A stretch of DNA of 64,000 nucleotides, taken from the NCBI GenBank assembly GCA_016841445.1, contig JAENZD010000001.1, forward strand, positions 496,001-560,000. Reading direction: 5' to 3'. Numbering within the stretch: the stretch's first letter is position 1; each line of letters opens with the position of its first letter. This DNA comes from Anaerolineaceae bacterium. GTDB taxonomy: Bacteria; Chloroflexota; Anaerolineae; Anaerolineales; Anaerolineaceae. The position numbers were made by a program, and so were the translations under genes. This document shows positions 1,821 through 18,236 of the stretch, piece by piece. The notes under the pieces were generated by a model. That model was not told the origin of the DNA, did not search any database, and saw only the letters and a program-made list of their open reading frames with translations.

Positions 1821-2074
1821 AAGTCCATTTGTTTGAGGGAAAACACGTATCCAGGCTGGAAATCCGATTGAATCATTGATAGTTAAAAGGATAGCGTAAA
1901 TATCAATAAGTGGGGGTTCCATTTATTGCTTTAATTTTCAATAATATTAATTTGACCAACCTTAAAATATCTCAGATTTTTCCTCAATTCTATTTTAGAC
2001 TATGAAATGTTGCTGGATATCATGATAAAATAGAATTGTCCATTTTTCCAAAAACCAATAAGGAGGATTTGATT

Positions 2075-5000
2075 ATGAAAAACAGGCCAAGATTACTCAA
2101 TCTGGTACTGGTATTTTTCTTTGTGTTTGGCGCGCTGGGGGTGGTACCAAAGACAGCTCAAGCTGCAACCAGTGATTTGTTCTTTTCAGAGTATATTGAA
2201 GGTTCGAGCAACAATAAAGCGCTTGAAATCTACAATGGTACTGGTGCGGCAGTTGACTTGGGGGATTATAAAGTTGTTTTGTTTTCGAATGGTTCTTCGA
2301 CCCCTGGCAATACGTTAACCTGGGATGCTGGTACCATGTTGGCTGATGGGGATGTTTACGTCATTGCAAATGCAAGCGCTGTCACAGCGATTAGCGATGA
2401 AGCAGATATCACGTCTACAGTCACATTTTACAACGGTGATGACGCCATTGCATTGCAAAAAGCGTCAGATGATTCCAATGTTGATGTGATTGGGGTCATT
2501 GGGACTGACCCTGGTTCATCTTGGGGTACAGAACCGGTCACAACGGTGGAACATACCCTCATCCGAAAAGCAACAATCTGTACAGGCGATACAAACGGAA
2601 CTGATGCCTTTGACCCGGCCACAGAGTGGGACGGATATGCACAGGATTATTTCGATGGCTTAGGCAGCCACACAGCGAATTGCGGGGTTACGGTATCAGA
2701 TCCAAAGATCAATGAATTTGTGGCAAACCATACTGGCACAGACACCAACGAATATATTGAAGTCTATGGTGACCCATCCACAGACTATTCCGCTTATACA
2801 CTCCTTCATTTTGAAGGTGATACCTCAAAAGGTACGATTGATAGTGTGCTGCCTGTCGGAACTACCGATGCAAGCGGCTTTTGGTGGACAGATTATCTTA
2901 ATAATGAAATTGAGAATGGGACGATCACCCTTCTGCTGGTAAAAGATTTTACAGGAGCAGATGGTGACGATCTGGATACGAATGATGATGGGTATTTTGA
3001 TTCGACCCCGTGGTCAATGATTGTTGACTCCGTTGCGGTGAGCGATGGCGGCAGCGGCGATCTTGTCTATGGGTTGCCAGTCTTAGGACCAGGCTTTGAC
3101 GGTGTTTCGTTCACACCCGGTGGTGCTTCAAGGATTCCGGACGGCTACGATACAGAATCTGTCTCTGATTGGATGCGAAATGATTACGATGGAGACGGCC
3201 TTCCTCTTGATCCGCTCCCAGGTCCAGCTGATGCCGGAGAAGCAATTAACACCCCAGGTGTAGGGAATGATGCCAACGGCACATCACCAGAGATGCCGCC
3301 AGTTGTTTCAATGACCCTTCCTGTGAATGGTGCTGCAGGCGTTCCACTGGATGTGAACATTGAAATAGCTTTCAGTGAAGTTGTTAACCTTGCAGAAGGA
3401 TGGTTTGAGATTAACTGCACGTTATCTGGTGTCCATGCGGCAGTAGTGGATGATTCTGCAAATCCTGCTATTCAACTTAACCCAACAACCGATTTTGCAG
3501 AAGTAGAAACCTGCACGGTCACGGTTTACGCAGCTTATGTAAATGATGCTGACACGGATGATGGCACCTATGATTACATGGAGAGCGACTACAGCTTCAG
3601 CTTCAATACCCTGCAGTACTGCGGTGCTGAATATACGCCCATTTACGATATCCAGGGTGCTGGTTTGAGCACGCCATTGTATGGTGTCACGCTTGCCACT
3701 GAAGGTGTCGTTGTGGGTGACTTCCAGGAGGGCGGCAAGAATGGCTTCTTTATCCAGGACCCTGCTGGCGATGCAGATGCTTTGACTTCAGACGGTGTCT
3801 TTGTTTATGCGCCTTCAGCCATGGATGTCAGTATTGGCGATCTTGTCCGTGTGGAAGGTACGGTTGGGGAATACTATGACCTGACCCAAATCAGTGCCAG
3901 CCAGGTATTTTTATGTGATGCTGGCATGTCCCTGCCTGAACCCGCTGAATTATCTTTACCTGTCACAAGCCTTGACGACTTTGAGCCGTACGAAGGCATG
4001 TATGTGACCTTCCCACAGGACCTTGTCATTTCTGAATACTTTAACTATGATCGCTACGGCGAGATAGTTCTCACATCAACACGGCACCTGACACCAACGG
4101 CGTTTGTAGAGCCGGGTGCGCCTGCCATTGCTGCCGCTGCGGATTACTTGCTGGACCGGATCACACTGGATGATGGCAGCAGTTATCAGAATCCCGATCC
4201 TGCGATTCACCCGAATGGCCTCGAATTCACAACCTATAACCGCTTCAGGGGTGGTGATTTGGTCACGAACCTGACCGGTGTTTTGGATTATAGTTATGAC
4301 CTTTACCGGGTACAGCCGACGCAAGGTGCTGATTACACGGCTGTTAACGCACGCACGGAAGCCCCTGCGATCATCGAGGGTGATATTAAGGTTGCCAGTT
4401 TCAATGTTCTGAATTACTTCACCACCATTGATGTGGGTGATGATATTTGCGGTCCAATCCTCTTTACAGATGTGTTTGGAGAATATGGGGTGGACCCAGG
4501 ATCAGCTTGGGGAACAGATGACTATACAACCAATGATCATACATTGGTGCGAAAAGCAGATGTTTGTTCCGGTGACACCAATGGCCTGGATGACTTTGAT
4601 CCTGCGCTTGAATGGGATTCCTACCTGCAGAATTATATTGACGATCTGGGCACCCATACGACGACCTGTTCATTTGATGATCTGATCATCTCTGAATATA
4701 TTGAAGGGTCAAGCAGCAATAAAGCGATTGAAATTTACAATGGCACCGGTGCTGCAGTTGATCTGAGCGGATATGAAGTTGTTTTATATTCGAATGGATC
4801 ATTGGAACCCACTAATACACAATCATGGGCTCCAGGTACGATGCTGGCAGATGGTGAAACTTATGTCATCGCTAATGCCTCTGCTATCCAAGGTATTTTG
4901 GATGTTGCAGATATCACATCAACTGTGACCTATTTCAATGGTGATGATGTCGTTTCGCTGCAACAAGCTGGAACAGGTGGGATGGAATGCCGAGGTGCTG

Positions 5001-6232
5001 ATACCGCTGAAGAGTTTGAACGGCAGAAAATAAAGATTGTTGAAGGGCTGTATGCGATTGACGCAGATATCGTGGGTTTGATGGAAATTGAGAATGATCG
5101 CCCCACCCTGACGCCTGATTATGCCGTTGCGGACCTGGTTGCTGGATTGAACGCAAAATACGGCAGTGAGGTCTATGGGTACGTTGCCACTGGTGCGATC
5201 GGGACGGATGCCATCAAGGTCGCCCTGCTTTATAAGCTTGATACGGTCACGCCAGTTGGTGATTTCGCCATCCTCGATACGAGTGTCGACCCTCGGTTCC
5301 TGGATGACTACAACCGGCCCGCCCTGGCCCAAACCTTTATGGATAATATGGTGGGTGAATCAATTACGGTAGCTGTGAACCATCTAAAATCCAAGGGTTC
5401 GTCGTGTTCTGCAATTGGTGATCCTGACCTCGGCGATGGACAGGGCAACTGTAACCTGACACGGTTGGCAGCAGCTCAGGCTGAGGTGGATTGGCTCGCA
5501 AGCGACCCAACCGGAACAGGTGTGGATAAATACCTGATCATCGGTGACCTGAACTCCTATGACAAGGAAGATCCCATCGATGCCATCAAACTGGGTTCCG
5601 ATGATGCACCAGGTGGTGGCGATGATTTCTATGACATGATATATGAAATCAACGGTGAGGATGCTTACGGTTATGTCTTCGATGGCCAGATTGGCTACCT
5701 CGATTATGCCCTTGTCAATGAGAACCTGTATGATTTTGTTGCTGATGCAAACTTCTGGCATGTCAATGCGGATGAGCCGGATATTATCGATTATGATATG
5801 TCCTTCAAAGCGGATGCTCAGGATGCACTTTGGGAACCAAACGCTTATCGGGCAAGCGATCATGACCCGGTGATCATCACGCTGACATTCAACCAGGAAC
5901 CAATGGCAGAAGATGATGCATATGAGACGGATCAGGATGTCATGCTTGAAGTTTTTGCTGATGGTGTATTGGAAAACGATATTGAGCTGAACGAATATGA
6001 TGAGATCACGTTAGACCTGATCAGCGGACCAATGCATGGCACGCTGGAACTCCATCAGGATGGTTCGTTCACATATATTCCGGATGCGGGTTTCTTCGGT
6101 ACAGATAGTTTTGAATATTTGCTGATTGCAATTCCTCCGAATTCTCGCACAGAATTTACCGATTCAGCTGTTGTGACGATCACGGTCAACCCGGCGTTCA
6201 AATATTATTTGCCGCTGTGGTTTAAACCATAA
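2075..6232 (+). CDS. secreted ExeM/NucH-type nuclease with lamin-tail, Ig-like and cadherin-like domains
   Basis: A 1385-residue extracellular nuclease of the endonuclease/exonuclease/phosphatase (EEP) superfamily. An upstream in-frame TTG at 2036 is rejected because AAGGAGG at 2060-2066 points to the ATG at 2075. Residues 1-30 form a signal peptide ending AQA. Order of parts: lamin-tail domain (about 33-203), a second lamin-tail-like domain (206-397), a bacterial Ig-like domain (405-510), an OB-fold-like region (520-640), the EEP domain (about 770-1275), a cadherin/VCBS-like domain (1280-1375), and the tail YYLPLWFKP. EEP motifs are intact: ASFNVLNY, VGLMEIEND, IIGDLNSYD, DYALVN and SDHDP. 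A third lamin-tail copy with its halves in swapped order interrupts the EEP domain at about residues 795-967. The likely role is degradation of extracellular DNA for nutrients or phosphate. Confidence 0.86.
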   Translation: MKNRPRLLNLVLVFFFVFGALGVVPKTAQAATSDLFFSEYIEGSSNNKALEIYNGTGAAVDLGDYKVVLFSNGSSTPGNTLTWDAGTMLADGDVYVIANASAVTAISDEADITSTVTFYNGDDAIALQKASDDSNVDVIGVIGTDPGSSWGTEPVTTVEHTLIRKATICTGDTNGTDAFDPATEWDGYAQDYFDGLGSHTANCGVTVSDPKINEFVANHTGTDTNEYIEVYGDPSTDYSAYTLLHFEGDTSKGTIDSVLPVGTTDASGFWWTDYLNNEIENGTITLLLVKDFTGADGDDLDTNDDGYFDSTPWSMIVDSVAVSDGGSGDLVYGLPVLGPGFDGVSFTPGGASRIPDGYDTESVSDWMRNDYDGDGLPLDPLPGPADAGEAINTPGVGNDANGTSPEMPPVVSMTLPVNGAAGVPLDVNIEIAFSEVVNLAEGWFEINCTLSGVHAAVVDDSANPAIQLNPTTDFAEVETCTVTVYAAYVNDADTDDGTYDYMESDYSFSFNTLQYCGAEYTPIYDIQGAGLSTPLYGVTLATEGVVVGDFQEGGKNGFFIQDPAGDADALTSDGVFVYAPSAMDVSIGDLVRVEGTVGEYYDLTQISASQVFLCDAGMSLPEPAELSLPVTSLDDFEPYEGMYVTFPQDLVISEYFNYDRYGEIVLTSTRHLTPTAFVEPGAPAIAAAADYLLDRITLDDGSSYQNPDPAIHPNGLEFTTYNRFRGGDLVTNLTGVLDYSYDLYRVQPTQGADYTAVNARTEAPAIIEGDIKVASFNVLNYFTTIDVGDDICGPILFTDVFGEYGVDPGSAWGTDDYTTNDHTLVRKADVCSGDTNGLDDFDPALEWDSYLQNYIDDLGTHTTTCSFDDLIISEYIEGSSSNKAIEIYNGTGAAVDLSGYEVVLYSNGSLEPTNTQSWAPGTMLADGETYVIANASAIQGILDVADITSTVTYFNGDDVVSLQQAGTGGMECRGADTAEEFERQKIKIVEGLYAIDADIVGLMEIENDRPTLTPDYAVADLVAGLNAKYGSEVYGYVATGAIGTDAIKVALLYKLDTVTPVGDFAILDTSVDPRFLDDYNRPALAQTFMDNMVGESITVAVNHLKSKGSSCSAIGDPDLGDGQGNCNLTRLAAAQAEVDWLASDPTGTGVDKYLIIGDLNSYDKEDPIDAIKLGSDDAPGGGDDFYDMIYEINGEDAYGYVFDGQIGYLDYALVNENLYDFVADANFWHVNADEPDIIDYDMSFKADAQDALWEPNAYRASDHDPVIITLTFNQEPMAEDDAYETDQDVMLEVFADGVLENDIELNEYDEITLDLISGPMHGTLELHQDGSFTYIPDAGFFGTDSFEYLLIAIPPNSRTEFTDSAVVTITVNPAFKYYLPLWFKP

Positions 6233-6366: not shown

Positions 6367-8685
6367 TTATTTTTTAACGGGGGATTTCAAAATGGATCGT
6401 AGATCGCTGTTTTGAAAGAATCGCCGGTATGCCCGGGATTCTTCTATTAATGGCTCCAAAATGGATTGGTAGGCATCTTCCAGGGCTGGATTGGCTGCGA
6501 CATTTGTCAATTTGATTAAAAGATCATCATCCTCAAAATCAATGGAGAGTTTTCCACGGGCTTCCCATATTTTGAGACCAACCCGCACAGCCTCCGGTTG
6601 TGCTGCGCATGCTGCCGCTAGCTGTTCGATCGATGTAAACCCGTGTTTCTGTTTGGCTGCATATTTTGCCAGGCCAGCCAGCCTTTCCATAAATCGCTTT
6701 AATTGGCTGATATCTGGATCGACACTGAATACAACAATATGGTTTGGTTTTGATTTTAACAGTGCTTCCCTCAAGACGTCGTGAGAAGGTGGGGCTGTCC
6801 AGATGATCAATGTTGCAGTTTCTCTCAATCCTTCACGGGAAATGCTTTCAATCCCATCGATTGTTCCGCCTTCCGCCCAAACTAGGCTTTCTGATGCTTT
6901 TTGAATTTCTTCCTTGAGCACTTGCATTGGCAGCAATTGGTGGCGGTGATCGATGATCTCAAAATCATGCCGGGCGACTTCCTGGACTCCTCTTTCAGAG
7001 AGGTGGAAGTCAATCCATTCCGCGTTGATTTGTGGTTCTCCCCTGTAATCGCTTTTTGAGAGTGAGCAAACCAGGTCGAACTGGGCTTCAGGCAGGGACT
7101 GATCACCGCCTTTCCACCAGATGATGCGCTGCTGGTTGCCATGTTCATCTTCTACGATAACTTGCCGGTGTTCACCGGTCTTGCCGATTTCAGAATGAGA
7201 GACCATCCTCAGATCCTTGATCAGGAATTTAAGGGCTGGGAAACCTGCGCCAAATGGCGCAAGCCGCTCAATTTGGTCGATCAAATCCATCGAAATGTCA
7301 TCCAGCTTAAGCACTCGGTCAATTTCTACTTTGGGAATATAGGTGATATGTTTGGCGATTTTCTCAATCTCAGAAAGGAAGCCGCGCTTGAAGGCGTCGT
7401 AATTCATAGCTGGCATTCCCAACCCTGCGGCCATGGGATGTCCGCCGAAGTTGCTCAGGTATCTTGCCTGGGTCCTGATCGCTTCGGTGATATTGATCCC
7501 TTCTACAGATCGCCCGGACCCATGGATGGGGCCACTCCCGGTCAGCAGCAGCACAGGCTTTTGGTAGCGCTCAACGATATGGCTGGCAACAGGGCCGATC
7601 ACGCCCCCCGGCCATTCCGGATGATGAAGGACAATGGCGGGGGCTAAGCGGTCTTCCGGGGCGTTCTGCAGCATGGCTTCAACGGCTTTTTCCACCTGGC
7701 GGGAGGCAAAGCGTCTTTTCGCATTGGTAGCCTCGATTAGGGTTCCCAGCACCCTTGCCCGGCCGCGGTCTTCAGTCGCCAGAAATTCAACCATTGGGTT
7801 GGCGTCTGCTAATCGGCCAATCGCATTCAGGCGTGGTCCGATTTGGAAACCGATATGTCCTTCGTTCAGGTTCACAGGGTTTAATTTTGCATTGAGATAA
7901 AGGGTTTGCAGACCAACGCGCTGGGAATGACGCAAGTGAGATAACCCTTTCTGCAGGATGGTGCGCGTGTCTGATTTTAATTCAGCAACATCAGCGACGA
8001 TGCCCAATGCAGTTAATTCAAGATAGGGGCCGGGATCGAACTGAAGACCCATGGTCTCGTGAAGGCCCTCGATTAATTTAAATGCAACACCAACGCCCGG
8101 CAAGGTCCGCAGGGGATGACCCTCCGGCAGACGTTGGGGGTTGAGGATGGCATTTGCCGGGGGGAGGGTCTCTGATAGGGTATGGTGGTCTGTAATGACC
8201 ACTGGTAATCCAGCGTCCCGAACGAGCTGAACATTTTCATGTTCTGTAATGCCGGTATCGCAGGTAAGCAGGAGATCAAAACCGCGGGCCAGGTAAGATT
8301 CCAAAACGTCTTTTTTGATACCGTGAGATTCTTTCGCACGGACTGGGATATGATAATCCACTTTTCCGCCAAGCGCTCGCAGTCCCTGGACAAGGACGGT
8401 CGTGGCAGTTTGCCCATCGACATCAAAATCGCCCCAGACAAGGATCCGTTTCTGGTGTTTTATGGCATCCCACAGCAGTTGATACGCTATTTCAATATCC
8501 GGCAGTTCTTCCGGCGATGTGGGTTGATATTCCCCTGGATCAAGAAAAGATCGTGCTGCTTCAAGTGATCGGTACCCGCGTTGGTACAGGGTTTGTGCTA
8601 CCAGTGGGTGCCCCCCGATGGCGTCCTGGAAGTCTGCCGGGACTTCTATTTCTTGTTTCAGGATCCACTGCACAGGTTCAGGCAT
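6367..8685 (-). CDS. recJ: single-stranded-DNA-specific exonuclease RecJ
   Basis: A 772-residue RecJ, the 5'-3' exonuclease that degrades single-stranded DNA in recombination and mismatch repair. DHH-family motifs are present: GDFDVDGQTA, DTGITEHE and VVITDHHTL. A DHHA1 region follows, with FGGHPMAAGLGMP near residue 420. It is longer than the roughly 580 residues of the E. coli enzyme because of a C-terminal extension, as in Firmicutes-type RecJ; part of the extension has a helicase-like look. Its ATG shares one base with the stop of the upstream nuclease gene (TGATG at 8683-8687), so the two are translationally coupled. It is the last gene of the helicase-nuclease operon, which supports a joint role in DNA end processing. 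Confidence 0.92.
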   Translation of the reverse strand: MPEPVQWILKQEIEVPADFQDAIGGHPLVAQTLYQRGYRSLEAARSFLDPGEYQPTSPEELPDIEIAYQLLWDAIKHQKRILVWGDFDVDGQTATTVLVQGLRALGGKVDYHIPVRAKESHGIKKDVLESYLARGFDLLLTCDTGITEHENVQLVRDAGLPVVITDHHTLSETLPPANAILNPQRLPEGHPLRTLPGVGVAFKLIEGLHETMGLQFDPGPYLELTALGIVADVAELKSDTRTILQKGLSHLRHSQRVGLQTLYLNAKLNPVNLNEGHIGFQIGPRLNAIGRLADANPMVEFLATEDRGRARVLGTLIEATNAKRRFASRQVEKAVEAMLQNAPEDRLAPAIVLHHPEWPGGVIGPVASHIVERYQKPVLLLTGSGPIHGSGRSVEGINITEAIRTQARYLSNFGGHPMAAGLGMPAMNYDAFKRGFLSEIEKIAKHITYIPKVEIDRVLKLDDISMDLIDQIERLAPFGAGFPALKFLIKDLRMVSHSEIGKTGEHRQVIVEDEHGNQQRIIWWKGGDQSLPEAQFDLVCSLSKSDYRGEPQINAEWIDFHLSERGVQEVARHDFEIIDHRHQLLPMQVLKEEIQKASESLVWAEGGTIDGIESISREGLRETATLIIWTAPPSHDVLREALLKSKPNHIVVFSVDPDISQLKRFMERLAGLAKYAAKQKHGFTSIEQLAAACAAQPEAVRVGLKIWEARGKLSIDFEDDDLLIKLTNVAANPALEDAYQSILEPLIEESRAYRRFFQNSDLRSILKSPVKK

Positions 8686-9527
8686 CAGAATTTTATTTCC
8701 GCGATTTCGTCAAAATCAGTTTCAACTTCAGCAGATTCGATATCCATATCGAAATCCTCAAATCCATCCAGGTCACCGGCCTGGGTACCCCGGTCGCAGT
8801 GCGAGCGGTAAACGCAGTAACAGCATTTTTTCAGGTCGGTTGCTTTCGAGAAGGACCCCTCGGGGCGGTTTTTTATTTCAGTAACCAGTGTAGAGAAAAA
8901 AGCCTGGTCCTTATGGTAAATCGTTTCATCATAGGGCAGTCGGATCAATGTTTCGGGGAAATCTGCAAACCAGTAGACCATCTCAATGTCCGCGGGTTTG
9001 AACGTCTGACCCCGGGTGAGAGCTTGGCTTGACTGTGCCAGCACGAAGCGGTAGAGCCGGGTTTGCACCCTTTCCATCAGCCATTCTTTTTTGGGCAGTT
9101 TTTGCGAGGTTTTCCAATCAAAGATCGTTATCTGATGTTGATCTTGATTTATAAGGAGCAAGTCGTATTTAGCGACAAGACGGCTGTCAGAAAGGTTAGT
9201 GCTTAGTGTGATTTCAGAAAATTTTTCACCAACAAGGCAGGATGGAATATGGGTCAGGAAGTTCTCCCACCAAATGGAGATACCTGGTTCAGGGTCTCCA
9301 GCTGCTGAAGAGGAGAGCTGATCCTCAGGGATGCCGGCTAAGTACTGCTGTACCAGACGGTGGAAGCGTGCTCCTGCCTGGCTGCGCGCTTCAAATTTGA
9401 TCGCGTCCTCAACAACAAGGGCTGGCCATTTCGTCCTGAGGATATACCGCAGGTAAAAACGGTAGAAACAATCCAGGTAATCCTGGATATTGCTTTGGGT
9501 AAAATCGAAGGATTCAACCAGCTTCAT
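8685..9527 (-). CDS. stand-alone PD-(D/E)XK nuclease, AddB/Cas4-like, with four-cysteine set
   Basis: A 280-residue nuclease of the PD-(D/E)XK superfamily, resembling the nuclease module normally fused to the C-terminus of AddB or RecB. Catalytic features are a histidine in ARFHRLVQ, an aspartate in AKYDLLL, the IFDWKTS motif (D...K) and the QTRLY (QxxxY) motif. One cysteine lies at the N-terminus (YLDCFYRF) and three lie near the C-terminus (KKCCYCVYRSHC). This spacing matches the iron-sulphur staple of AddB and Cas4. The ATG overlaps the upstream helicase stop by four bases (ATGA), and the stop touches recJ. The likely role is the nuclease subunit of a split double-strand-break resection complex. 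A Cas4-like role is less likely because no CRISPR genes are present. Confidence 0.82.
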   Translation of the reverse strand: MKLVESFDFTQSNIQDYLDCFYRFYLRYILRTKWPALVVEDAIKFEARSQAGARFHRLVQQYLAGIPEDQLSSSAAGDPEPGISIWWENFLTHIPSCLVGEKFSEITLSTNLSDSRLVAKYDLLLINQDQHQITIFDWKTSQKLPKKEWLMERVQTRLYRFVLAQSSQALTRGQTFKPADIEMVYWFADFPETLIRLPYDETIYHKDQAFFSTLVTEIKNRPEGSFSKATDLKKCCYCVYRSHCDRGTQAGDLDGFEDFDMDIESAEVETDFDEIAEIKF

Positions 9528-11767
9528 GATTGGTTCTCCAGGAAATTGATCAATTCGAGAAATGCCATCGCAGGGTAGTTTTTATTCATCCCCCTGCCGG
9601 TGTTCCATGTGGCCGTCAGCCATCGACGGGCACGGGTAATTCCCACAAAAAGCAGCCGCAGTCGCTCGCGGATGAACTCCTGCCGGGCTTCAAAGGATGC
9701 TTCCCCAGGTTGGTACCAATCAAAAGGTTTCTTCTCGATTAACGTTTTTAACTGGGCAATGATTTCCGCTTCGAGGTTCAGGTTGTCCCGTATATACCAT
9801 TTCTCGGATTGAAACTGGTCGTAGTTTTCACCGGATGGGAAGTTGTAGTTGTTCAGGGAGGTCAGGAACACACAATCCCATTCCAAACCTTTGGCTTTAT
9901 GTATGGTGGCAACGACAACCTTCCCTGGATACCGGTCAGGATCAAAGGCATCATCTTCCTGGGAAAAACCCAGGTAGCGGCGTTCATTCCTGGCAATATT
10001 TGCCAGCTCATCAGTAAATTCCGGCAGCCGCCAGTCCGGGTGGACATCGCTGAACTGCCGTAAGAGCGACGAAAGTTTGTGCGCCAGGGCGAGTTCAGCT
10101 GAGTCCAGGAATAAATCCTGGGAAACGGTCAGGATAAGCTGGTCGATGGGCAAATAGATGGTTTGGTGCCAGCGACGGACAACCTGGCGAAAGTTCTCCA
10201 GCTCCTCTCGTACTTCAGGCTCCTTGTTATTTTCTGCAATCTCATCCACCCAGGCGTCACTGCTGGTGGGCCAGATGTAATCTTCAACGTGCTGGCATTT
10301 CTTGATCGTGGCGGCAATGCGCTTGAAAAAAGGCCATTTCTCTTCGTCTTCACGATCCGACCTGCGCCAAACTTTATAAGCCAGTGAGAGCCTGGTGCTG
10401 GATTTTGGATCGCTTAAATAATTCAGGATATTGGCAATGGCTCCGGTGGATAAGCGCGTTGTGCTGGTGGAGCGAAGCAGGCTGTCTTCATTGGGAATCT
10501 CCCGCCGGTTCAGTTCATCGACGAATTTGAATGCACGGTTATTGCGTGGGGTCAGGATAGCAACGGTCGATTCGGGATGCTCCCCCAGGAAGTCCTCAAC
10601 CCGATCAACAACAAGCCGAATTTCTTCATCCGGTGCCAGTGCCCGTTCAACCAAATTGATACAAGACGGGCAAGCAGGTGGGTTGGGTTGGGGGTCATCC
10701 GGCGGTGTACCTTTGATCAATGGGGGATTCAGCGCATGCTGGGATTCTGAATTTGGGTGGTCAGTACGGGTCCATTGGATCAAGTGGTTGGCGAGATCAA
10801 TAATGTTGAGGCTTGAACGACCGCTTTCTGGGAGTTGGCGTTCATCCACGTCGGGATTTTCCAGGAATTGAAGCAGGTATTTTGGACTGGCGGTAGTGAA
10901 TGTTTCGTAAATGGCCTGGTTTGGGTCTCCAACACGTACCCAGTTGCCATTTGGGCCGGCGAGCAGCGACAGGATTTTCTGTTGTAAAAGGCTGGAATCC
11001 TGGGCTTCATCTTCAAGGATGAACGGCCACCGCTGCCTGAGAACGTCTACAAGTGTGGAATCTGATTCCAAACAGTGCAGTGCCAGACGGATCAGGTCGT
11101 CAAAATCAACACTGCCGCGGTAGATCAAAGCGTTTTGATACTCACGGTAGATTTCGGTACCCATCTCCACCAGGGGAAAGCTGAACGGGGTATCCTGGAG
11201 CAGCTTTCGCAAATCGTCGGGCGTGACCTGGCAGTCTTTTGCCAGGCGGATGAACGCCGTCGCAATTGATTCGACCATCAATGGAAGCTGGTATTTATCC
11301 TGGTACACTTTTTTCTTTTGGTTTTCATTGACATCAAGGTAAGGCTCAAAGAAATCAGTGTTTGCATTCAGCCAATCGGTCGTAATGCTCTTGATGATCC
11401 GGTTGGCTTCAGACTCATCGATGATTTGGTAATCCGTGCTTAAGCCTGCCAGGTCAGGGCGCTCCCTGACGATGTCGTTAGCCAACCCGTGCAAGGTCCG
11501 AACCCGGTAGCCGAATCCCAGGAACTGGTTTTGTGCTCTCAATTGGTTAGCTATCCGGTTGGCAAAATTATCCACAGCTGCATTGACCAATGTGACGATG
11601 AGAATCTCCTGGTCCGGTTGAATGGCACCGGATTGGATCAATTTTGCAGCCAGGTAAGATAATGTCCAGGTTTTGCCACTGCCCGGGACTGCGCTGATTC
11701 CCATTTTCCCTGACCGGTAGCGCAGAATTTCTTTCTGGAAGGGACGAAGTTTGATGACTTCTGTCAT
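9524..11767 (-). CDS. UvrD/PcrA-like SF1 DNA helicase (AddA/AdnB-like partner)
   Basis: A 747-residue superfamily 1A helicase. All main motifs are visible: AVPGSGKT (Walker A, near residue 27), SVDFDDLI, LEDEAQD (motif II), VGDPNQAIYETF (III), TIHKAKGLEWDCVFL (V) and LLFVGITRARRWL (VI). It should hydrolyse ATP and translocate 3'-5' along DNA. No nuclease domain follows motif VI; that activity sits in the next gene. It overlaps both neighbours by four bases (ATGA at 11764-11767 and at 9524-9527), so the three proteins are probably made in fixed ratio. A plain UvrD/PcrA repair helicase is possible, but the coupling to an AddB-like partner and an AddB-type nuclease favours a resection complex. 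Confidence 0.87.
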   Translation of the reverse strand: MTEVIKLRPFQKEILRYRSGKMGISAVPGSGKTWTLSYLAAKLIQSGAIQPDQEILIVTLVNAAVDNFANRIANQLRAQNQFLGFGYRVRTLHGLANDIVRERPDLAGLSTDYQIIDESEANRIIKSITTDWLNANTDFFEPYLDVNENQKKKVYQDKYQLPLMVESIATAFIRLAKDCQVTPDDLRKLLQDTPFSFPLVEMGTEIYREYQNALIYRGSVDFDDLIRLALHCLESDSTLVDVLRQRWPFILEDEAQDSSLLQQKILSLLAGPNGNWVRVGDPNQAIYETFTTASPKYLLQFLENPDVDERQLPESGRSSLNIIDLANHLIQWTRTDHPNSESQHALNPPLIKGTPPDDPQPNPPACPSCINLVERALAPDEEIRLVVDRVEDFLGEHPESTVAILTPRNNRAFKFVDELNRREIPNEDSLLRSTSTTRLSTGAIANILNYLSDPKSSTRLSLAYKVWRRSDREDEEKWPFFKRIAATIKKCQHVEDYIWPTSSDAWVDEIAENNKEPEVREELENFRQVVRRWHQTIYLPIDQLILTVSQDLFLDSAELALAHKLSSLLRQFSDVHPDWRLPEFTDELANIARNERRYLGFSQEDDAFDPDRYPGKVVVATIHKAKGLEWDCVFLTSLNNYNFPSGENYDQFQSEKWYIRDNLNLEAEIIAQLKTLIEKKPFDWYQPGEASFEARQEFIRERLRLLFVGITRARRWLTATWNTGRGMNKNYPAMAFLELINFLENQS

Positions 11768-13887
11768 TGGTTTGCCCCCTGCGATTTCTGCAGAACCTGC
11801 TGCAGGATCCGGATCAGCAAGCCGCGATTCTCATACCCGCGCACGTCAAGTTCGCTCAACGCCAGGAAGACCTTTTTTCGACACCGGTTCAATAAGCCAA
11901 TGGAAAGGCGCTGCAGTGATTGGTTGGCAGCATTAATTTCTTTTTCCGCCGTCCAGACCTCATCCTTTTCCCAATTACGGCTCAGGACATAAGGCTGGGT
12001 CAGGGGTTGGTCCAGCCGTTGATACCAGCTTGGACTGCCGATATCGAGCCAGAATTGAAAGTCAACCGGTTGGTTTTTTATCAGGTAGGTATATGCAGGT
12101 GAGATGTACACTGCGTCCGGATCTCTATCTTCCCAGGTGTGGATGTACTGTGCGGCGATCACCCCATCTTCCACCATCTGGATATATTCTTTGCCGATTG
12201 AAAACTGGTAAGCGGATAATGGATTGCCAACAGCCCACCTGAATTTTTGAATCGATTCGATCAGGGTCGCGATGACGTTCCCACTCTCCATATCTTGATG
12301 AAATCCGTAGCCGGGTTGGGCCAGAATTTCACCAAATATGCGGTTGAGAAAGAAATCAAGGTGGAGCTCTTCCTCTTGTGTGTTTTCGATGATCCAATCC
12401 CGTAAATGGTCGTATCGTTCACCGATACGGTATGTGATCCGCTCACGGATTTCTCCCGGGACATGCTCAAAGGGTTGTAGAATCTCGCCATTTGATCCTG
12501 TTTGGTAGACTGCCGCTGTTAATAGCTGTGACCTGACAAGGTCCAACCCGTCAATAGCCAAAGTGAACGCAAGAGAGAGATTGATGGGCTTGGGGAAGAT
12601 GTCCCAGGAAGGAAAAGCGATCTTTGCCAGGGTTAACAGGGTCTGGGTTGCCGGCTCATCCCGCAGTGGTCGTGAAGGACGGTGGGTTTGATAGGGGATC
12701 CCATGTTCACCTAATTGAGTCGATAATGCGAACTTCAGCACATCAGGCATGAACGGGGCAAGGATAACGATCTCACCAGGTGTCACGCCGCTTTCCACAA
12801 GGTTCCTGGTTTGGTCAGCGACCCATTCCACCATGGCAGGGAAAAATTTCGGCCGGGTTTCAGGGATCATCAACGTGGATAGTACATCTTCTTGAGTGGG
12901 TTCGGGGTGTTGAGGGGTCCCGCCAGTTAAACGAGAAACTGCGTTCTGTACGCCTTGTTTGATATGGGAGATTGCCGGGTTTGATACCAGGTTGCTTTCA
13001 AAATGGACACGTTTTTCACAGGTTTGGCGCAGTGCATAGCCGCTTGCTACATCCGCACCCAGGAAAAAGCGGTAACCGGCATCCTCGTCGAAAATAAGCA
13101 GGGAGGAATCAAATGAAGGGATCCATTCCCTGAGGATATCGTGGGCCACCGGGGTATCTTCCTCAAGGTTATCGACGATCAGGTGGCGATAATGCCTCGT
13201 TAAGCTGTCCCGGACGAGGGGATCAGGCCATAAAACCTTGGTGAAGATCTCAACCTGGAGTGAGAAATCCAGCAGGTTGTTTTCAAGACAAAAATGACGG
13301 AAGTTATTGACACAGGATTGAACATTGTCATAAATATGCATTTGCTCTATATCGCCAACCCAGGCAGATTTCAAACGACCGCTGATCTCCTGGTAGGGGA
13401 AGCCAATAATCGCAGATTTGTTGAGGTTATCCAGAATTTGGGAATAGATCCGGTTGCGGTTGATCGTCAGGCTGCTGAAAAAACCTTCTTCCTCAATCAG
13501 CGGACGGACAATATGTGCCATGTAGTACTGGGCTGTTTCCATGGTAAGGAATTGAGGCGGGCGAAGGGGCATCCCAAAACCCGCTTGATGGCTGATCATG
13601 GGCCAATAAAGGTCAACCATGCGGCGTGCCAAACTGCCGAGGGTGAGTACGTTGATCAAGCTGTGGGCAATCTCATCCATTTCACGCAAGCTGTCCTGGT
13701 AAGGCTGCCCCAGCGACCTTTGCGGGACAAAAACGACGATCTCATGCGCAGAGATGTTTTCTTTGAGCAGCTTTTTCAGCCATTGGGTGCCTGCTGTGGT
13801 TTTCCCGGACCCCGCTTGACCATGCAGAAAAATTCTGGAATGAATGGGATGGTCGAGGAGTTTTTCCTGTTCGGCGGTTAATTGCAT
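11764..13887 (-). CDS. AddB/RecC-like helicase-related protein
   Basis: A 707-residue protein with an SF1-like ATPase start (GQAGSGKTT, Walker A, near residue 25). Its motif II region is altered: LIVDNLEEDTP where active helicases have DExQD. LLIFDEDAGYRFFLGAD corresponds to motif III. It lacks a clear motif VI and a nuclease domain, so it resembles AddB or RecC, where the second helicase core serves DNA recognition rather than unwinding. The frame extends to 13956, but I choose the ATG at 13887, which has AAGG just upstream and matches the usual position of the Walker motif. It is the first gene of the operon; its stop overlaps the next gene (ATGA). Confidence 0.75.
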   Translation of the reverse strand: MQLTAEQEKLLDHPIHSRIFLHGQAGSGKTTAGTQWLKKLLKENISAHEIVVFVPQRSLGQPYQDSLREMDEIAHSLINVLTLGSLARRMVDLYWPMISHQAGFGMPLRPPQFLTMETAQYYMAHIVRPLIEEEGFFSSLTINRNRIYSQILDNLNKSAIIGFPYQEISGRLKSAWVGDIEQMHIYDNVQSCVNNFRHFCLENNLLDFSLQVEIFTKVLWPDPLVRDSLTRHYRHLIVDNLEEDTPVAHDILREWIPSFDSSLLIFDEDAGYRFFLGADVASGYALRQTCEKRVHFESNLVSNPAISHIKQGVQNAVSRLTGGTPQHPEPTQEDVLSTLMIPETRPKFFPAMVEWVADQTRNLVESGVTPGEIVILAPFMPDVLKFALSTQLGEHGIPYQTHRPSRPLRDEPATQTLLTLAKIAFPSWDIFPKPINLSLAFTLAIDGLDLVRSQLLTAAVYQTGSNGEILQPFEHVPGEIRERITYRIGERYDHLRDWIIENTQEEELHLDFFLNRIFGEILAQPGYGFHQDMESGNVIATLIESIQKFRWAVGNPLSAYQFSIGKEYIQMVEDGVIAAQYIHTWEDRDPDAVYISPAYTYLIKNQPVDFQFWLDIGSPSWYQRLDQPLTQPYVLSRNWEKDEVWTAEKEINAANQSLQRLSIGLLNRCRKKVFLALSELDVRGYENRGLLIRILQQVLQKSQGANQ

Positions 13888-13893
13888 GACCTT

Positions 13894-13899
13894 ATTATA
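13894..13899 (-). promoter_or_regulatory. possible -10 element (leaderless) of the helicase-nuclease operon
   Basis: On the minus strand, TATAAT lies exactly six bases before the chosen ATG at 13887. This is the arrangement found for leaderless transcripts. No good -35 hexamer is seen 16-18 bases upstream. A second TATAAT, on the plus strand at 13934-13939, faces the divergent acyl-CoA synthetase gene. Confidence 0.4.
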
Positions 13900-13983
13900 T
13901 TCGATAGTGTGCCTTCGCCGGGGGTAACTCGGGTATAATTGCGGGGCAGATATCAAACCAAACCACCGAAAGGACTCAGCCCC

Positions 13984-16098
13984 ATGACAAGTGACCTGGC
14001 ACCCTTTTTCTCTCCGGCAGGTGTTGCCATCATTGGCGCTTCAACCAATCCCCGTAAGCTATCTTATGGGATCCTAGAAAATTTAACCGCTTATGGATAC
14101 CAGGGCGGGGTTTATCCCGTCAACCCAAATGCAGATGAAATTTTAGGTTTGAAATGCTACCCCCAGGTTGGGGACGTACCCGATCCCGTTGAGCTGGCTG
14201 TTGTGGTGCTCCCCGCGTCAATGACCCCGGAAGTTTTACGCGCTTGCGGCGAAAGAGGGATCAAGGCTGTGATCATTATTTCCGGTGGGTTCCGGGAGGT
14301 CGGTGCCAGCGGTGCACGACTGGAAAAAGAATGCCTCCAGATCGTTAAATCCTATCAAATGCGGTTGATTGGTCCCAATTGTGTGGGCACGGTCGACCTC
14401 CATACAGGGTTGGATACGACCTTCATCAAAGGGCTGCCGGATAAAGGATCGATTGGCTTTTTGTCACAGTCAGGTGCGGTGTTGGGTGGTGTGGTTGATT
14501 ACATCATTGATAAGCATGTTGGCTTTTCTCATTTTGCGAGCCTGGGGAATGAATTGGACGTTGACGAATCGGATATGATCGCTTTTTTTGGCGCGGATCC
14601 GAAAGTGAAGGTGATTGCGGCTTATGTGGAAGGAATCCAGGACGGGCAGAAGTTCATCCGCATTGCCAGCGAGGTTTCTAAACACAAACCGATCGTCCTG
14701 CTTAAAGCAGGCAGGACGGAAGCAGGTGCCCAGGCTGTTTCCTCACATACAGGTTCATTAGCTGGCGCTTATGCGGCATACCAGGCTGCGTTTGAGCAGG
14801 CAGGCATCATTGAAGTTGAAGACCTGCCTTCATTATTTGATGTTGCCTGGGCGCTGAGCTGCCAGCCGCTGCCCAATGGGAACAAAGCAGCCATTTTCAC
14901 AAACGCCGGGGGTCCGGCAGCACTGGCCTCAGACGCATTAGCTGCAAATGGCTTCGAACTGGCATCAATCTCTGCAGAAAAGCAAGCCTTATTAGCAGAA
15001 AAACTAAATCCTGCTGCCCAGGTGGCCAACCCGGTCGATATGCTGGGCGGCGCTGAAGCGGATGAGTTTGCGCATTGCCTCTCGACCCTTTCAGACGACC
15101 CCGGTGTAGATATATTGATGCCGATGCTGGTTCCGCAATCCCTGGTCAACCCGGCGGATATTGCCAAAGCAATTGTTGATCACACCCAGGGTGTTGGGAA
15201 AACGGTCCTGGCTTGTATGGTTGGTGAACAGAGCATTAAGGAAGCTCGTGCTGTTCTGCATGCTAATCAAATTCCACTGGCAATCTTTCCTGAAACACCC
15301 GGCAAGGTCCTGGGGGCGATGGCTGGATATCGAGAATGGGTATCAAAGGGGCAATCTGGAACATTCGAATTTTCTGCGGAATATCGAGAAAATGCTGCAC
15401 GGTATTTATCAGGTCTCAATGCCGATGTCTTAGGAGAGGCGGAGACACGTCCGTTGCTTGCTTCTTATGGCATGGATTTGATCCCTGGTGGGTTTGCTGA
15501 GAACGCAGCCAGGGCAGCAGAAATCGCTGCTGAAATTGGATTCCCTGTTGCGCTGAAAATTGTCTCTCCCCAGGTGCTGCATAAATCCGATTCAGGCGGC
15601 ATAAGATTAGGATTGGATTCAGCGGAAGCAGTTGAAATCGCTGCAGAAAAAATGAAAATCAGGATCCTGGCAGCAATCCCGGATGCTGAGGTCAAAGGTT
15701 TCCTGGTTGAAAAAATGGCACCTGAAGGTCTGGAAGTAATCGTCGGCATGCGGCGTGATCCAACCTTTGGCCCATTGATGATGTTTGGACTGGGCGGGAT
15801 TTATGTTGAACTCTTCAAAGATGTTGGCTTCGGGGTCGCACCGCTGAACCAGAACCAGGCCAGGGATATGATCGAAAAGACAAAAGCTGGCAGGTTATTG
15901 AAAGGCTTCAGGGGTGGGCCAGCTTATGATATGGAGTCTGTCATTGATGCCATTGGCAGGTTGAGCCAAATAGCACTCGACTTCCCGGTGATTTCGGAGA
16001 TCGAAGTCAACCCGCTCTTGGTGCTGCCGGAAGGCGAAGGTGCCAAAATACTGGATGCGCGTGCAATTCTAATAAATCAAAGAGACGAGGAAAAATGA
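13984..16098 (+). CDS. acyl-CoA/acetyl-CoA synthetase, ADP-forming, fused alpha and beta subunits
   Basis: A 704-residue cytoplasmic enzyme of the NDP-forming acyl-CoA synthetase family. It converts acetyl-CoA (or another acyl-CoA) plus ADP and phosphate to the acid, CoA and ATP, and so yields energy at the end of fermentation. The alpha part comes first, with a CoA-binding Rossmann domain (GASTNPRKLSYGILENL, near residue 20), succinyl-CoA ligase-like domains and the phosphohistidine region SSHTGSLAGAY. The ATP-grasp beta part follows from about residue 480 (ALKIVSPQVLHKSDSGG). The frame opens at 13939, but AAAGGA at 13970 supports the ATG at 13984. Its stop overlaps the next gene by four bases. 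Confidence 0.9.
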   Translation: MTSDLAPFFSPAGVAIIGASTNPRKLSYGILENLTAYGYQGGVYPVNPNADEILGLKCYPQVGDVPDPVELAVVVLPASMTPEVLRACGERGIKAVIIISGGFREVGASGARLEKECLQIVKSYQMRLIGPNCVGTVDLHTGLDTTFIKGLPDKGSIGFLSQSGAVLGGVVDYIIDKHVGFSHFASLGNELDVDESDMIAFFGADPKVKVIAAYVEGIQDGQKFIRIASEVSKHKPIVLLKAGRTEAGAQAVSSHTGSLAGAYAAYQAAFEQAGIIEVEDLPSLFDVAWALSCQPLPNGNKAAIFTNAGGPAALASDALAANGFELASISAEKQALLAEKLNPAAQVANPVDMLGGAEADEFAHCLSTLSDDPGVDILMPMLVPQSLVNPADIAKAIVDHTQGVGKTVLACMVGEQSIKEARAVLHANQIPLAIFPETPGKVLGAMAGYREWVSKGQSGTFEFSAEYRENAARYLSGLNADVLGEAETRPLLASYGMDLIPGGFAENAARAAEIAAEIGFPVALKIVSPQVLHKSDSGGIRLGLDSAEAVEIAAEKMKIRILAAIPDAEVKGFLVEKMAPEGLEVIVGMRRDPTFGPLMMFGLGGIYVELFKDVGFGVAPLNQNQARDMIEKTKAGRLLKGFRGGPAYDMESVIDAIGRLSQIALDFPVISEIEVNPLLVLPEGEGAKILDARAILINQRDEEK

Positions 16099-16853
16099 TC
16101 CTTCTAAGTATTGCGATCGTTATTGCTATATTGGTCACGGTTGTGCTGCCCATCGCGGCGGGCTTTTGGATCAATAAAAAATTAGGCGTTCCGTGGTCCA
16201 TCATTTTCTATGGGGCATTCATCTACTTCTTAGTCCAGTCCCTGATGACCCTCTTGTTTGCGGGGGTAGATGCACTGTATCAAAGTGGGACAATCGCTCT
16301 CAATGAAAGCACTTATTTAGTGTTGCAAATCGGGGTCAGCATCCTGCTCACGGCAGCCATGGGCGTAGCGCTGCGCTGGGCTGCAATGCGGTACATGAAA
16401 GAAAAACTTGATAACCTCGAATCCGCTTATGCGGTTGGGCTTGGCTACGGCGCAGCAGAAAGCATCATGGTCTGGGGTTTGCCTTTAGTGCTGACGTTTG
16501 TCAACATGATCCGGAATATTGGGGAGGAAGTAGCAGCAGAAGCATGGGCTCTCTCACCGTTTATTCCCCTGGCGCTCTCAATGGAGCGTATTACAGCATT
16601 TGTCCTGTCCATCACGGTGACCATTTTGGTGCTTCAGGTTTTCAAGCGGGACAAGGGGTATTGGATCCCTGCAGCGATTGGGCTGGAAGTACTGTCAAAT
16701 GGATTGGTGATTGGCTTATCAGAGCTTGGGTTGGGGTACGGCTGGTTGGTTTTGATCGCAGTGGTTGTGATGGGATTCAACTTGTTCCTGCTGTATCGTT
16801 TGCGTGCTTTCGAATTCGATATTACCAGGGCAGGTGGGGAACCAGCGTTATAG
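16095..16853 (+). CDS. YhfC-like integral membrane protein (putative intramembrane peptidase family)
   Basis: A 252-residue membrane protein with about seven hydrophobic segments. It resembles the YhfC family (DUF2324), proposed to be glutamate-type intramembrane peptidases related to the CPBP family. Candidate motif regions are GLGYGAAESIMVWG (near residue 118) and MERITAFVLSITVT (near 165), each with a glutamate inside or next to a membrane helix. I do not see the histidine that often follows the ER pair in related proteins, so activity is unproven. It overlaps the acyl-CoA synthetase stop (ATGA), so the two are co-transcribed, but no functional link is obvious. Confidence 0.65.
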   Translation: MILLSIAIVIAILVTVVLPIAAGFWINKKLGVPWSIIFYGAFIYFLVQSLMTLLFAGVDALYQSGTIALNESTYLVLQIGVSILLTAAMGVALRWAAMRYMKEKLDNLESAYAVGLGYGAAESIMVWGLPLVLTFVNMIRNIGEEVAAEAWALSPFIPLALSMERITAFVLSITVTILVLQVFKRDKGYWIPAAIGLEVLSNGLVIGLSELGLGYGWLVLIAVVVMGFNLFLLYRLRAFEFDITRAGGEPAL

Positions 16854-16884
16854 ACTCATTTAACAAATGATTGTCTTAAATAGA

Positions 16885-16921
16885 AAGAAGTCTATCAGGT
16901 AGGTGGAGTAGACTTCTTTTT
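16885..16921. terminator. bidirectional intrinsic terminator
   Basis: Ten-base arms (AAGAAGTCTA and TAGACTTCTT) surround a 14-base loop. T residues follow on the plus strand, and an A-rich flank gives U residues on the minus strand. It sits between the convergent YhfC-like and ugd genes. Confidence 0.8.
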
Positions 16922-16925
16922 GATT

Positions 16926-18236
16926 CTAATCTATAGGATCAGGTACACCCACACCGATATATGTAAAACCTAATTTTCGCAGTTCCCAGCCGTCCCAAAC
17001 ATTCCGCCCATCGAAAACGACATTCCCCTTCATATTTGCTTTGATTTTGTTAAAATCCAGGGACTTAAATTCATTCCATTCCGTTGCAAGCAGCAAGGCC
17101 TCACAACCTTTGGCGGCTTCATAAGGGTTTTGGCAGAGGATCAATTGGGGAATTTCTGCCTTGGATGCTGCCATCGCCTGTGGATCAAATGCCTGGACCT
17201 CAGCATCTTTCTCCAATAGCATACGAATAATGTCAAGTGCAGGGGCGTCGCGGGTGTCATCTGTATTGGGCTTAAAGCTGAGCCCTAAAACGCCAATTCG
17301 TTTTCCTTTGAGTGATCCTAACGCGCTCTCCAATTTAGCGACTGCTCGTATGCGTTGGTTCTGGTTGATGTCCATGACGGCTTGCAGCAGCTGTGGATGG
17401 GCACCGCGGGTTGCCGCCATAAAGAAAAGCGCTTTAACATCTTTCGGGAAGCAGCTCCCGCCCCAACCCAACCCGGCATCCAGAAATGTATGACCGATTC
17501 GCTTGTCCATACCCATGCCGCGGGCGACCTCTCTCACATCTGCCCCAAGCGAATCGCAGATATTGGCGATTTCATTGATATAGGAAATGCGGGTCGCCAG
17601 AAAAGCATTGGAGGCATATTTGATCATTTCTGCTGTACGGAGGTCAGTGATCATGATCGGCGAGCGCAGTGCCTGGTAGAGATCAGCTACTTTTTGGGCA
17701 GCATCCGGGTTGGTTGAACCCAACACCACACGGTCAGGATTCATGAAATCGCTGACGGCAGAACCTTCCCGCAGGAATTCCGGGTTTGAAACCACGCAGA
17801 AAGCGGGTTTTTGTTTTCCGTTGAGGTCAAAAATGACCTCGGTAACCCAATCCCCGGTACCGACAGGCACGGTGGATTTGTTGACGATGATGATGGGATG
17901 GTCCAAATTTTCAGCGATTGAAGTAACGGCCATCCTGACATACTGCATATCGGCTTCACCGTCAACATTGGATGGTGTTCCCACCGCGATGAATGCGAAT
18001 TCAGCATCCGTTAGTGCATCTTTGTAGCTGGTTGTGAAAGATAAGCGCCCTGCTTCTACATTTTGATCAACGATTTGCTTCAATCCAGGTTCATAAATCG
18101 GCATGATGCCATTTTTAAGCTGCTCGATCCGCTCTTCGTTGATGTCAAGGCAGGTTACCATGTGCCCCATGTCCGAAAAGCAGGTGCCGGTGACTAACCC
18201 CACATAACCCGTTCCAATCACACAGATTTTCGCCAT
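16926..18236 (-). CDS. ugd: UDP-glucose 6-dehydrogenase
   Basis: A 436-residue cytoplasmic enzyme that oxidises UDP-glucose to UDP-glucuronate with two NAD+, supplying precursors for surface polysaccharides. The N-terminal Rossmann motif is [12 protein letters not shown] (from residue 6). The catalytic cysteine lies in WGGSCFPKD near residue 260. The C-terminal UDP-binding domain contains [15 protein letters not shown]. Length is normal for the family. The start at 18236 has GGAGG-like bases (minus strand, about 18243-18247) upstream. A minus-strand TATAAT at 18295-18300 may be its -10 element. Confidence 0.93.

Follow-up and report, generated by a model that had tools for sequence, protein, structure and literature searches.

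A four-gene cassette with a predicted split AddB, a helicase and a RecJ paralogue in Anaerolineae

Four overlapping genes in an Anaerolineaceae genome

We analysed a stretch of 64,000 nucleotides (hereafter the window; contig JAENZD010000001.1 of assembly GCA_016841445.1, positions 496,001 to 560,000) from an Anaerolineaceae bacterium, in which four minus-strand genes, here named ABL, HEL, NUC and RecJ, form a cassette that may process DNA ends. Four overlapping genes on this strand had been described in an original prediction made from the letters of the window, and the coordinates of the open reading frames (ORFs) agree with it: successive genes overlap by 4 (11764–11767), 4 (9524–9527) and 1 (8685) nucleotides. 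ABL (11764–13887) encodes an AddB/RecC-like protein of the superfamily 1 (SF1) helicase fold without a nuclease domain, 707 amino acids (aa) long from its ATG, in which Walker A is kept and motif II reads DNLEE. It is followed by HEL (9524–11767), a UvrD/PcrA-like SF1A helicase of 747 aa with all motifs intact and no fused nuclease; by NUC (8685–9527), a free-standing AddB/AdnA-type PD-(D/E)XK nuclease of 280 aa with a 1 + 3 cysteine iron–sulphur signature; and by a cassette-type RecJ (6367–8685) of 772 aa, with intact catalytic motifs and an extra C-terminal region beyond the OB domain. An alternative TTG start at 13956 would lengthen ABL to 730 aa (ORF 11764–13956); the ATG at 13887 is more likely to be used, because residues 1–23 of the TTG version have a predicted local distance difference test (pLDDT) score below 50 in the structural model.

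Predicted structures and conserved residues

Family scans assigned three of the proteins readily. HEL matched UvrD-helicase (156 bits) and UvrD_C (82 bits), with no PDDEXK or other nuclease match; NUC matched PDDEXK_1 (PF12705; 88.5 bits, model positions 2–247 of 247); and RecJ contained DHH, DHHA1 and RecJ_OB domains, scoring 459 bits against TIGR00644 (cut-off 397). With ABL, UvrD-helicase matched weakly (29.6 bits) and ADDB_N stayed below its threshold (16.6 versus 26.6 bits), and no AddB-family model reached its cut-off. No RecD-family match was obtained in these scans for any of the four proteins.

To place ABL and NUC on AddB, a reference profile was built by aligning seven AddB proteins from the class. 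With hhalign, ABL aligned to columns 18–694 (618 columns, 97.9%, E 4.7e-13) and NUC to columns 777–1055 (230 columns, 96.8%, E 2.4e-10). The predicted structure of ABL (pLDDT 86) matched AddB residues 2–696 with a Z-score of 22 and AdnB with a Z-score of 25 (approx. 620 residues, root mean square deviation (rmsd) 4.5), while its core gave a Z-score of 29 with UvrD. For the NUC model (pLDDT 87), the best match was the AdnA nuclease (Z-score 18.1, 224 residues, rmsd 3.0), and AddB 782–1134 was matched with a Z-score of 15. Since the profile alignments cover the two parts of AddB and the fold matches agree, ABL and NUC are, as judged from sequence profiles and modelled structures, one AddB in two pieces. 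No ORF in the cassette loci fetched up to this comparison carries more than one of the four families. The sole evident motor of the set is HEL.

Residues that we take to form the functional motifs are conserved throughout. In ABL, G51 and K52 of Walker A and the replacement for motif II, D262-N-x-E-E266 (D262, N263, E265 and E266), are invariant in all 18 aligned relatives; HEL motifs I, II (EDEAQD), III (GDPNQ) and VI show no change in 16 of 16. The four NUC cysteines (C20 and C235/C238/C244) together with H56, D122, D137, K139, Q155 and Y159 were found in each of 20 relatives, and the DHH, DFDxDG and GGH motifs of the cassette RecJ in each of 13. These data uphold the protein assignments made originally: an AddB/RecC-like protein with intact Walker A and altered motif II; a UvrD-like helicase that looks fully active, in the sense of its intact motifs; an AddB-type PD-(D/E)XK nuclease of 280 residues with 1 + 3 cysteines, encoded by an ORF of its own although homologous to the nuclease of AddB and AdnA; and a RecJ, whose membership is further supported by its co-occurrence with ABL (see below). 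Cas4 models gave only weak matches to NUC (E 2.5e-4 with PADLOC; 12.9 bits against a cut-off of 70), and we did not adopt the reading of it as a CRISPR Cas4.

The source genome (G000 in our set; G, L, f and g numbers denote genomes, loci, families and genera) also encodes another RecJ, of 575 aa, at C6:304 kb, for which the cassette RecJ profile gives 463 bits. Full-length cassette-type members score 715–1173 bits, and those of the divergent genus g42 533–538 bits.

Co-occurrence and gene order in Anaerolineae

The distribution of the cassette was analysed in 150 genomes of the class, 103 of them good (completeness of 90% or more, contamination of no more than 5%). Before counting we dropped 11 of 91 ABL genomes with matches weaker than E 1e-20, 8 of 81 NUC genomes with weak or partial matches (G059, G065, G104, G112, G119, G135, G139 and G147) and 1 of 44 AddB genomes (G090), leaving ABL in 80 genomes, HEL in 78 and NUC in 73. 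The three genes go together almost without exception: HEL is present in 60 of the 61 good genomes with ABL and NUC in 54, and neither is present in the 42 without ABL; 53 good genomes have all three and 42 have none (n = 103). A cassette-type RecJ at E <= 1e-170 was found in 41 of the 61 and none of the 42. The first count rises to 44 with three divergent copies that lie beside NUC, the 42 ABL-less genomes being assessed at E <= 1e-170 only; this cut may hide divergent RecJ proteins elsewhere too, whether or not the genome has ABL. In 17 further RecJ-less genomes, no RecJ was seen beside NUC or HEL within the stretches inspected.

All four genes are present in 54 of the 150 genomes (57 if the three g42 genomes are included), and in 22 they form one run. 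Neighbouring pairs are adjacent in 54 of 77 genomes for ABL–HEL, 38 of 70 for HEL–NUC and 34 of 56 for NUC–RecJ, counts in which contig breaks swell the non-adjacent class. Gene order was counted in six frames at 80 named loci, wherever the flank allowed: ABL lies upstream of HEL in 54 of 69, NUC downstream in 49 of 63 and RecJ in 33 of 49, with all four in order in 26 of 41. These loci include the isolate Anaerolinea thermolimosa IMO-1 (L181), whose RecJ is farther downstream. In family f2 the genes are genuinely scattered, to varying degrees (for example in G027, a single contig), and the set is complete in the members checked. The gene order proposed for survey in relatives is thus conserved in many of them without being universal.

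A wider sample of 400 genomes from the phylum contained ABL (E <= 1e-15) in 45, every one of the same class; going by the listing order, these 45 come from 55 genomes of the class, and none of the 345 genomes outside it has ABL. Within the class, ABL is universal in the sampled members of families f1 (10/10) and f2 (24/24). In each of families f25, f27 and f37, some good genomes carry the three core genes and other good genomes lack them all, and f14 and f20 each have a good genome without the core genes and a lower-quality one with them. At four loci of families f21 and f5 (L306 in G083, L307 in G041, L308 in G138 and L309 in G119), ABL and HEL are adjacent, with no NUC or RecJ beside them or at the cuts used; these are possibly nuclease-less versions.

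AddAB in the source genome and in the class

The original prediction had suggested that the cassette might be the RecBCD replacement of this lineage. That suggestion fails for this genome (98.85% complete) and we rejected it, as an AddA (1134 aa) and an AddB (1064 aa) are encoded side by side at G000:C3:888–895 kb, an AddAB elsewhere in the genome being a refutation that the prediction itself had named. In NCBIfam the pair is matched best by the AddA and AddB models, at scores below the cut-offs of those models, and AddA carries a PDDEXK nuclease match, unlike HEL. The pair (L005, 697–10686; G000:C3:884–895 kb) adjoins an SbcD-like phosphoesterase and a 714-aa AAA_27 protein on the other strand, possibly an AddAB–SbcCD-like neighbourhood.

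Across the class, AddB was found in 22 of 60 good genomes with ABL and HEL versus 8 of 43 others (p 0.05); the cassette therefore neither requires nor excludes AddAB. Among the genomes with all four genes, AddB is present in 24 of 54 (27 of 57 with g42), and 30 have no AddB match on either count. In six good cassette genomes (G003, G031, G035, G114, G115 and G140), NUC is the sole PF12705 match at E <= 1e-5, which suggests that the cassette may be their only machine of the AddAB type, searches with RecBCD, AdnAB and AddA models of their own not having been made there. This is suggestive and not proof, because AddA-type nuclease domains score weakly with PF12705 (2.1e-9 in the source genome).

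The presence of AddAB in the same genome, and the PcrA/UvrD-like character of HEL, raise the question of whether the cassette acts elsewhere than at breaks. HEL and RecJ could work as a UvrD–RecJ pair in single-strand gaps or at stalled forks, assisted by ABL and NUC, with breaks left to AddAB. We consider this quite unlikely, as ABL and NUC correspond specifically to AddB, an end-processing subunit, and as more than half of the four-gene genomes (30 of 54, or 30 of 57) lack an AddB match.

The neighbours of the cassette that were scanned in the window are a DegV family protein, an ExeM/NucH-type extracellular nuclease and a CoA ligase. The second of these adjoins the cassette on the opposite strand (2036–6232, plus strand); it belongs to the ExeM/NucH family (NCBIfam, 582 bits), is 1398 aa long and has lamin-tail domains. 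Approximately 25 kb from the cassette, and outside the set, there is a small PF12705 nuclease-like protein of approx. 250 aa (G000:C3:476576–477037; L003, and L006 at 4309–5061).

A copy on a Salinibacter plasmid

Beyond Chloroflexota, all four genes occur in the same order (10001–17884) on plasmid pSR56 of Salinibacter ruber M8 (Rhodothermota). Identities to the cassette are 40% for ABL, 43% for HEL and 34% for NUC, and the plasmid RecJ scores 479 on TIGR00644. In a HEL tree made by a quick method, the pSR56 copy falls among Anaerolineae sequences, with a long branch and an unstarred fork. On this comparison of sequences, transfer of the cassette from Anaerolineae is likely, without being firm.

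Other searches beyond the class yielded little. A search of other plasmids with ABL returned six weak records, of which only that of Ilyobacter exceeded 80% coverage, at 19.5% identity and with neighbours that are not those of the cassette; a cyanobacterial plasmid nuclease (27.7% identity over 61%) had no cassette genes nearby. A viral origin was rejected: the HEL profile found 20 loci in IMG/VR, none above 34% identity and 14 of them covering less than half of the query, and a search of phage records with ABL gave one weak partial match. Of the best 80 of 549 relatives from a scan of genome contigs, 79 carry the label of Chloroflexota or of one of its groups and one that of Bacillota. A contig (L202, JAKJGF010000076.1) of a metagenome-assembled genome labelled Bacillota has a HEL that falls among Anaerolineae sequences; probably the bin is mislabelled or the contig has strayed into it.

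The set is not a matter of chance: its four families are found side by side again elsewhere in the class, in other families, and also on a plasmid from a different phylum. A loose group of repair enzymes, with no joint machine and a co-occurrence due to shared ancestry alone, would fit the scattering in f2 and the incomplete adjacency of the pairs, inflated as that is by contig breaks. Against this, membership is nearly all-or-none even where the genes are scattered, the five families noted above hold genomes both with and without the core genes, and the likely transfer to another phylum concerned the whole block; we regard such a loose grouping as very improbable. The cassette is a real unit, nearly all-or-none even where its genes lie apart.

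The plasmid also bears on function. pSR56 (L207 and L209), which also encodes DNA polymerase IV, is rich in genes for type I restriction, for methyltransferases and for toxins and antitoxins, and has a GIY-YIG nuclease and a DUF262 protein. Such restriction, methylation, nuclease and toxin–antitoxin genes would suit a cassette that has the same biochemistry but serves mainly to destroy DNA that enters the cell or belongs to plasmids, and not to mend breaks, as would its co-presence with AddAB, which fits a second role. However, many repair nucleases limit foreign DNA too, the universality of ABL in f1 and f2 is core-like rather than patchy, the three scanned neighbours in the window are not known defence genes, and PADLOC returned generic helicase matches (GajB and RTasHel, among the best 25 of 53 matches shown for HEL) and weak Cas4-type ones. 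Clearance of foreign DNA as the main role thus seems to us rather unlikely.

The NUC tail and its association with RecJ

The last 24 residues of NUC, which with the stop codon occupy 8685–8759 (minus strand), resemble the tip of SSB, with an acidic linker that leads to the terminal sequence ...DFDEIAEIKF. In NUC proteins generally, the last cysteine is followed by an acidic, poorly conserved stretch of low model confidence and then by a conserved tip, typically (I/L)DFEQIAEIEF; in our model, residues 257–280 have a pLDDT below 50. F, Y or W is the final residue of 73 of 79 distinct complete NUC proteins, versus 13.4% of 958 background ORFs, a background that includes the NUC proteins. The Salinibacter NUC ends in DDVEEIEF and four f43 members in IPF or IPY, while the three SSB-family proteins of the source genome (L116, L117 and L118) end in EYPF, SIPF and EIPF. 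At the level of sequence, conservation of the NUC tip is firm.

In Deinococcus, the C-terminal domain of RecJ binds the end of SSB, whose last Phe sits in a pocket (PMC4846377). We accordingly examined whether the NUC tip goes with the cassette RecJ. A tip was scored where the last residue is F, Y or W, the residue two before it is I, L, V, M, T or A, and the last 14 residues include at least three D or E; this rule was fixed after the tails had been viewed and before they were split by RecJ. The table covered 72 of the 73 NUC genomes (G092 was left out), or 70 once G133 and G143 had been dropped as incomplete. The tip is present in 50 of 58 genomes with the RecJ paralogue versus 5 of 12 without (n = 70, p 0.002), and among the 52 good genomes in 34 of 42 versus 3 of 10 (p 0.003). 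Had g42 been classed as RecJ-less by the E <= 1e-170 cut, the counts would be 50 of 55 versus 5 of 15 (p 1.5e-5); it is the counting of its divergent RecJ proteins that gives p 0.002. Contrasts within families also fit in f5 (both features in G003, neither found in G099) and f21 (both in G019, neither found in G146). A tip with no RecJ found occurs in G108, G116 and G124, genomes that are fragmented or incomplete.

The tip might be thought a by-product of the overlap with the start of recJ. This is unlikely, because it is kept in 19 of 21 genomes that have a complete tail and non-adjacent NUC and RecJ genes, among them G027 (one contig), G111 and G148 of family f2. We put forward binding of the cassette RecJ by the NUC tip as a hypothesis with moderate support from these sequence comparisons.

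A model for the cassette

We estimate a probability of roughly 55% that the four genes encode one split AddAB-like DNA-end-processing complex with its own RecJ, as their sequences suggest. In such a complex, HEL would unwind from a DNA end, in the 3′–5′ direction if it follows its family. ABL would take the place of the helicase-like part of AddB or RecC, acting as a scaffold that holds and separates the strands, and NUC would cut one strand as the AddB nuclease domain does, as a separate iron–sulphur protein. The dedicated RecJ paralogue would remove the 5′ strand while HEL opens the end. Should this RecJ dock on the SSB-like tip of NUC, its delivery would fall to the machine and not to SSB alone. 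Such processing would leave a 3′ single-stranded tail for use in recombination, or would break down foreign DNA. We infer the complex, its activities, polarity, division of labour, tip docking and pathway from the named families. The fullest version of the model, a four-subunit machine with a split AddB and a nuclease that mimics the SSB tip to carry its own RecJ, a 5′ exonuclease borne by the machine and not recruited by SSB, transferable as a four-gene block, we hold to be doubtful.

Several observations weigh against the proposed complex or against its coupling to RecJ through the tip. HEL is nearer to PcrA/UvrD than to AddA (154 bits with PcrA in a profile comparison with PDB, against 98 with AddA and 97 with AdnB). 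No cassette-type RecJ was found in 17 of the 61 good ABL genomes and no NUC in 7, and therefore neither is indispensable. The genomes are related, so all p-values given here overstate independence; counted once per genus and state, the tip–RecJ association weakens to p 0.004 (31 of 36 versus 2 of 7), and counted once per family and state to p 0.08 (24 of 29 versus 4 of 8). In genus g42 of family f39 (L293 in G038, L295 in G070 and L302 in G136), a RecJ of 843–874 aa (533–538 bits) directly follows a divergent NUC without the tip, which makes these three genomes misfits within their family, as is G055 in f21; G006 and G140 likewise have RecJ but no tip. An aromatic end that fails the tip rule was seen in G062 and G090, and an aromatic end with no RecJ found in G015 and G080, both 95% complete, for which gaps in the assembly are a less ready explanation. 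Finally, the cassette RecJ profile did not align to the C-terminal domain of Deinococcus RecJ, so the pocket is not shown.

AddAB, AdnAB and RecBCD are textbook cases of a helicase fused to a nuclease, and RecBCD-like and RecF-like pathways are usually treated as alternatives. A naturally separate nuclease would allow it to be added, removed or swapped, so that the role of the tether becomes testable, and the NUC tip provides a concrete, still weakly supported hypothesis for the coupling of a helicase–nuclease with RecJ, of RecBCD-like with RecF-like processing. In some Anaerolineae, the cassette may mark the only machine of its kind. AddB, RecJ and UvrD are already known, as are operons of unfused UvrD and Cas4-like nucleases. 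Our literature searches found no description of a split AddB in a four-gene set with a dedicated RecJ, which is not proof of absence, nor of an SSB-like tip on such a nuclease, nor of break repair in Anaerolineae.

Comparison with known systems

The closest counterpart is AddAB of the Bacillus type. ABL and NUC together account for most of AddB (18–694 and 777–1055 of 1064), and NUC shares its 1 + 3 cysteines and PD-(D/E)XK motifs. In AddB, however, the nuclease is fused to the helicase-like part, whereas ABL and NUC are separate ORFs; the AddA motor has a fused C-terminal nuclease, whereas HEL (747 aa) has none; and a RecJ paralogue belongs to the cassette. Mycobacterial AdnAB offers the best structural match for the NUC model, in the AdnA nuclease, and ABL is predicted to resemble AdnB, but AdnA and AdnB each hold a nuclease region in the chain, while the cassette has one separate nuclease for two SF1-fold proteins. 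RecBCD differs in that the cassette has neither a fused RecB-type nuclease nor a RecD-family match.

Operons of unfused UvrD and a Cas4-like pfam12705 nuclease, or fusions of the two, have been reported, the unfused ones mostly in Clostridiales (Hudaiberdiev 2017, PMC5704561). In the available portion of that paper, no AddB-like partner or RecJ is mentioned with them (RecJ has 0 occurrences), and solo-Cas4 is noted in many Chloroflexi. In Synechococcus elongatus, a cas4-like gene, uvrD, recJcy and a PD-(D/E)XK gene are among six that limit plasmid establishment and transformation, and the report ties them to Argonaute (PMC10653904). The parallel to the cassette is striking at the level of family names. 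ACE1, a cyanobacterial Argonaute-associated nuclease of the Cas4 family, is free-standing and has the same fold as NUC (Z-score 15, approx. 224 residues), but it is 12–14% identical to NUC, is a poorer match than AdnA by Z-score and occurs in another context.

Resection by a helicase with RecJ in the RecF-type pathway, as in Deinococcus, is the remaining parallel: there a 3′–5′ helicase works with RecJ, whose C-terminal domain binds the SSB tip (PMC4846377). The difference lies in the tip, which belongs to SSB in Deinococcus, whereas in the cassette it is a nuclease that bears an SSB-like tip.

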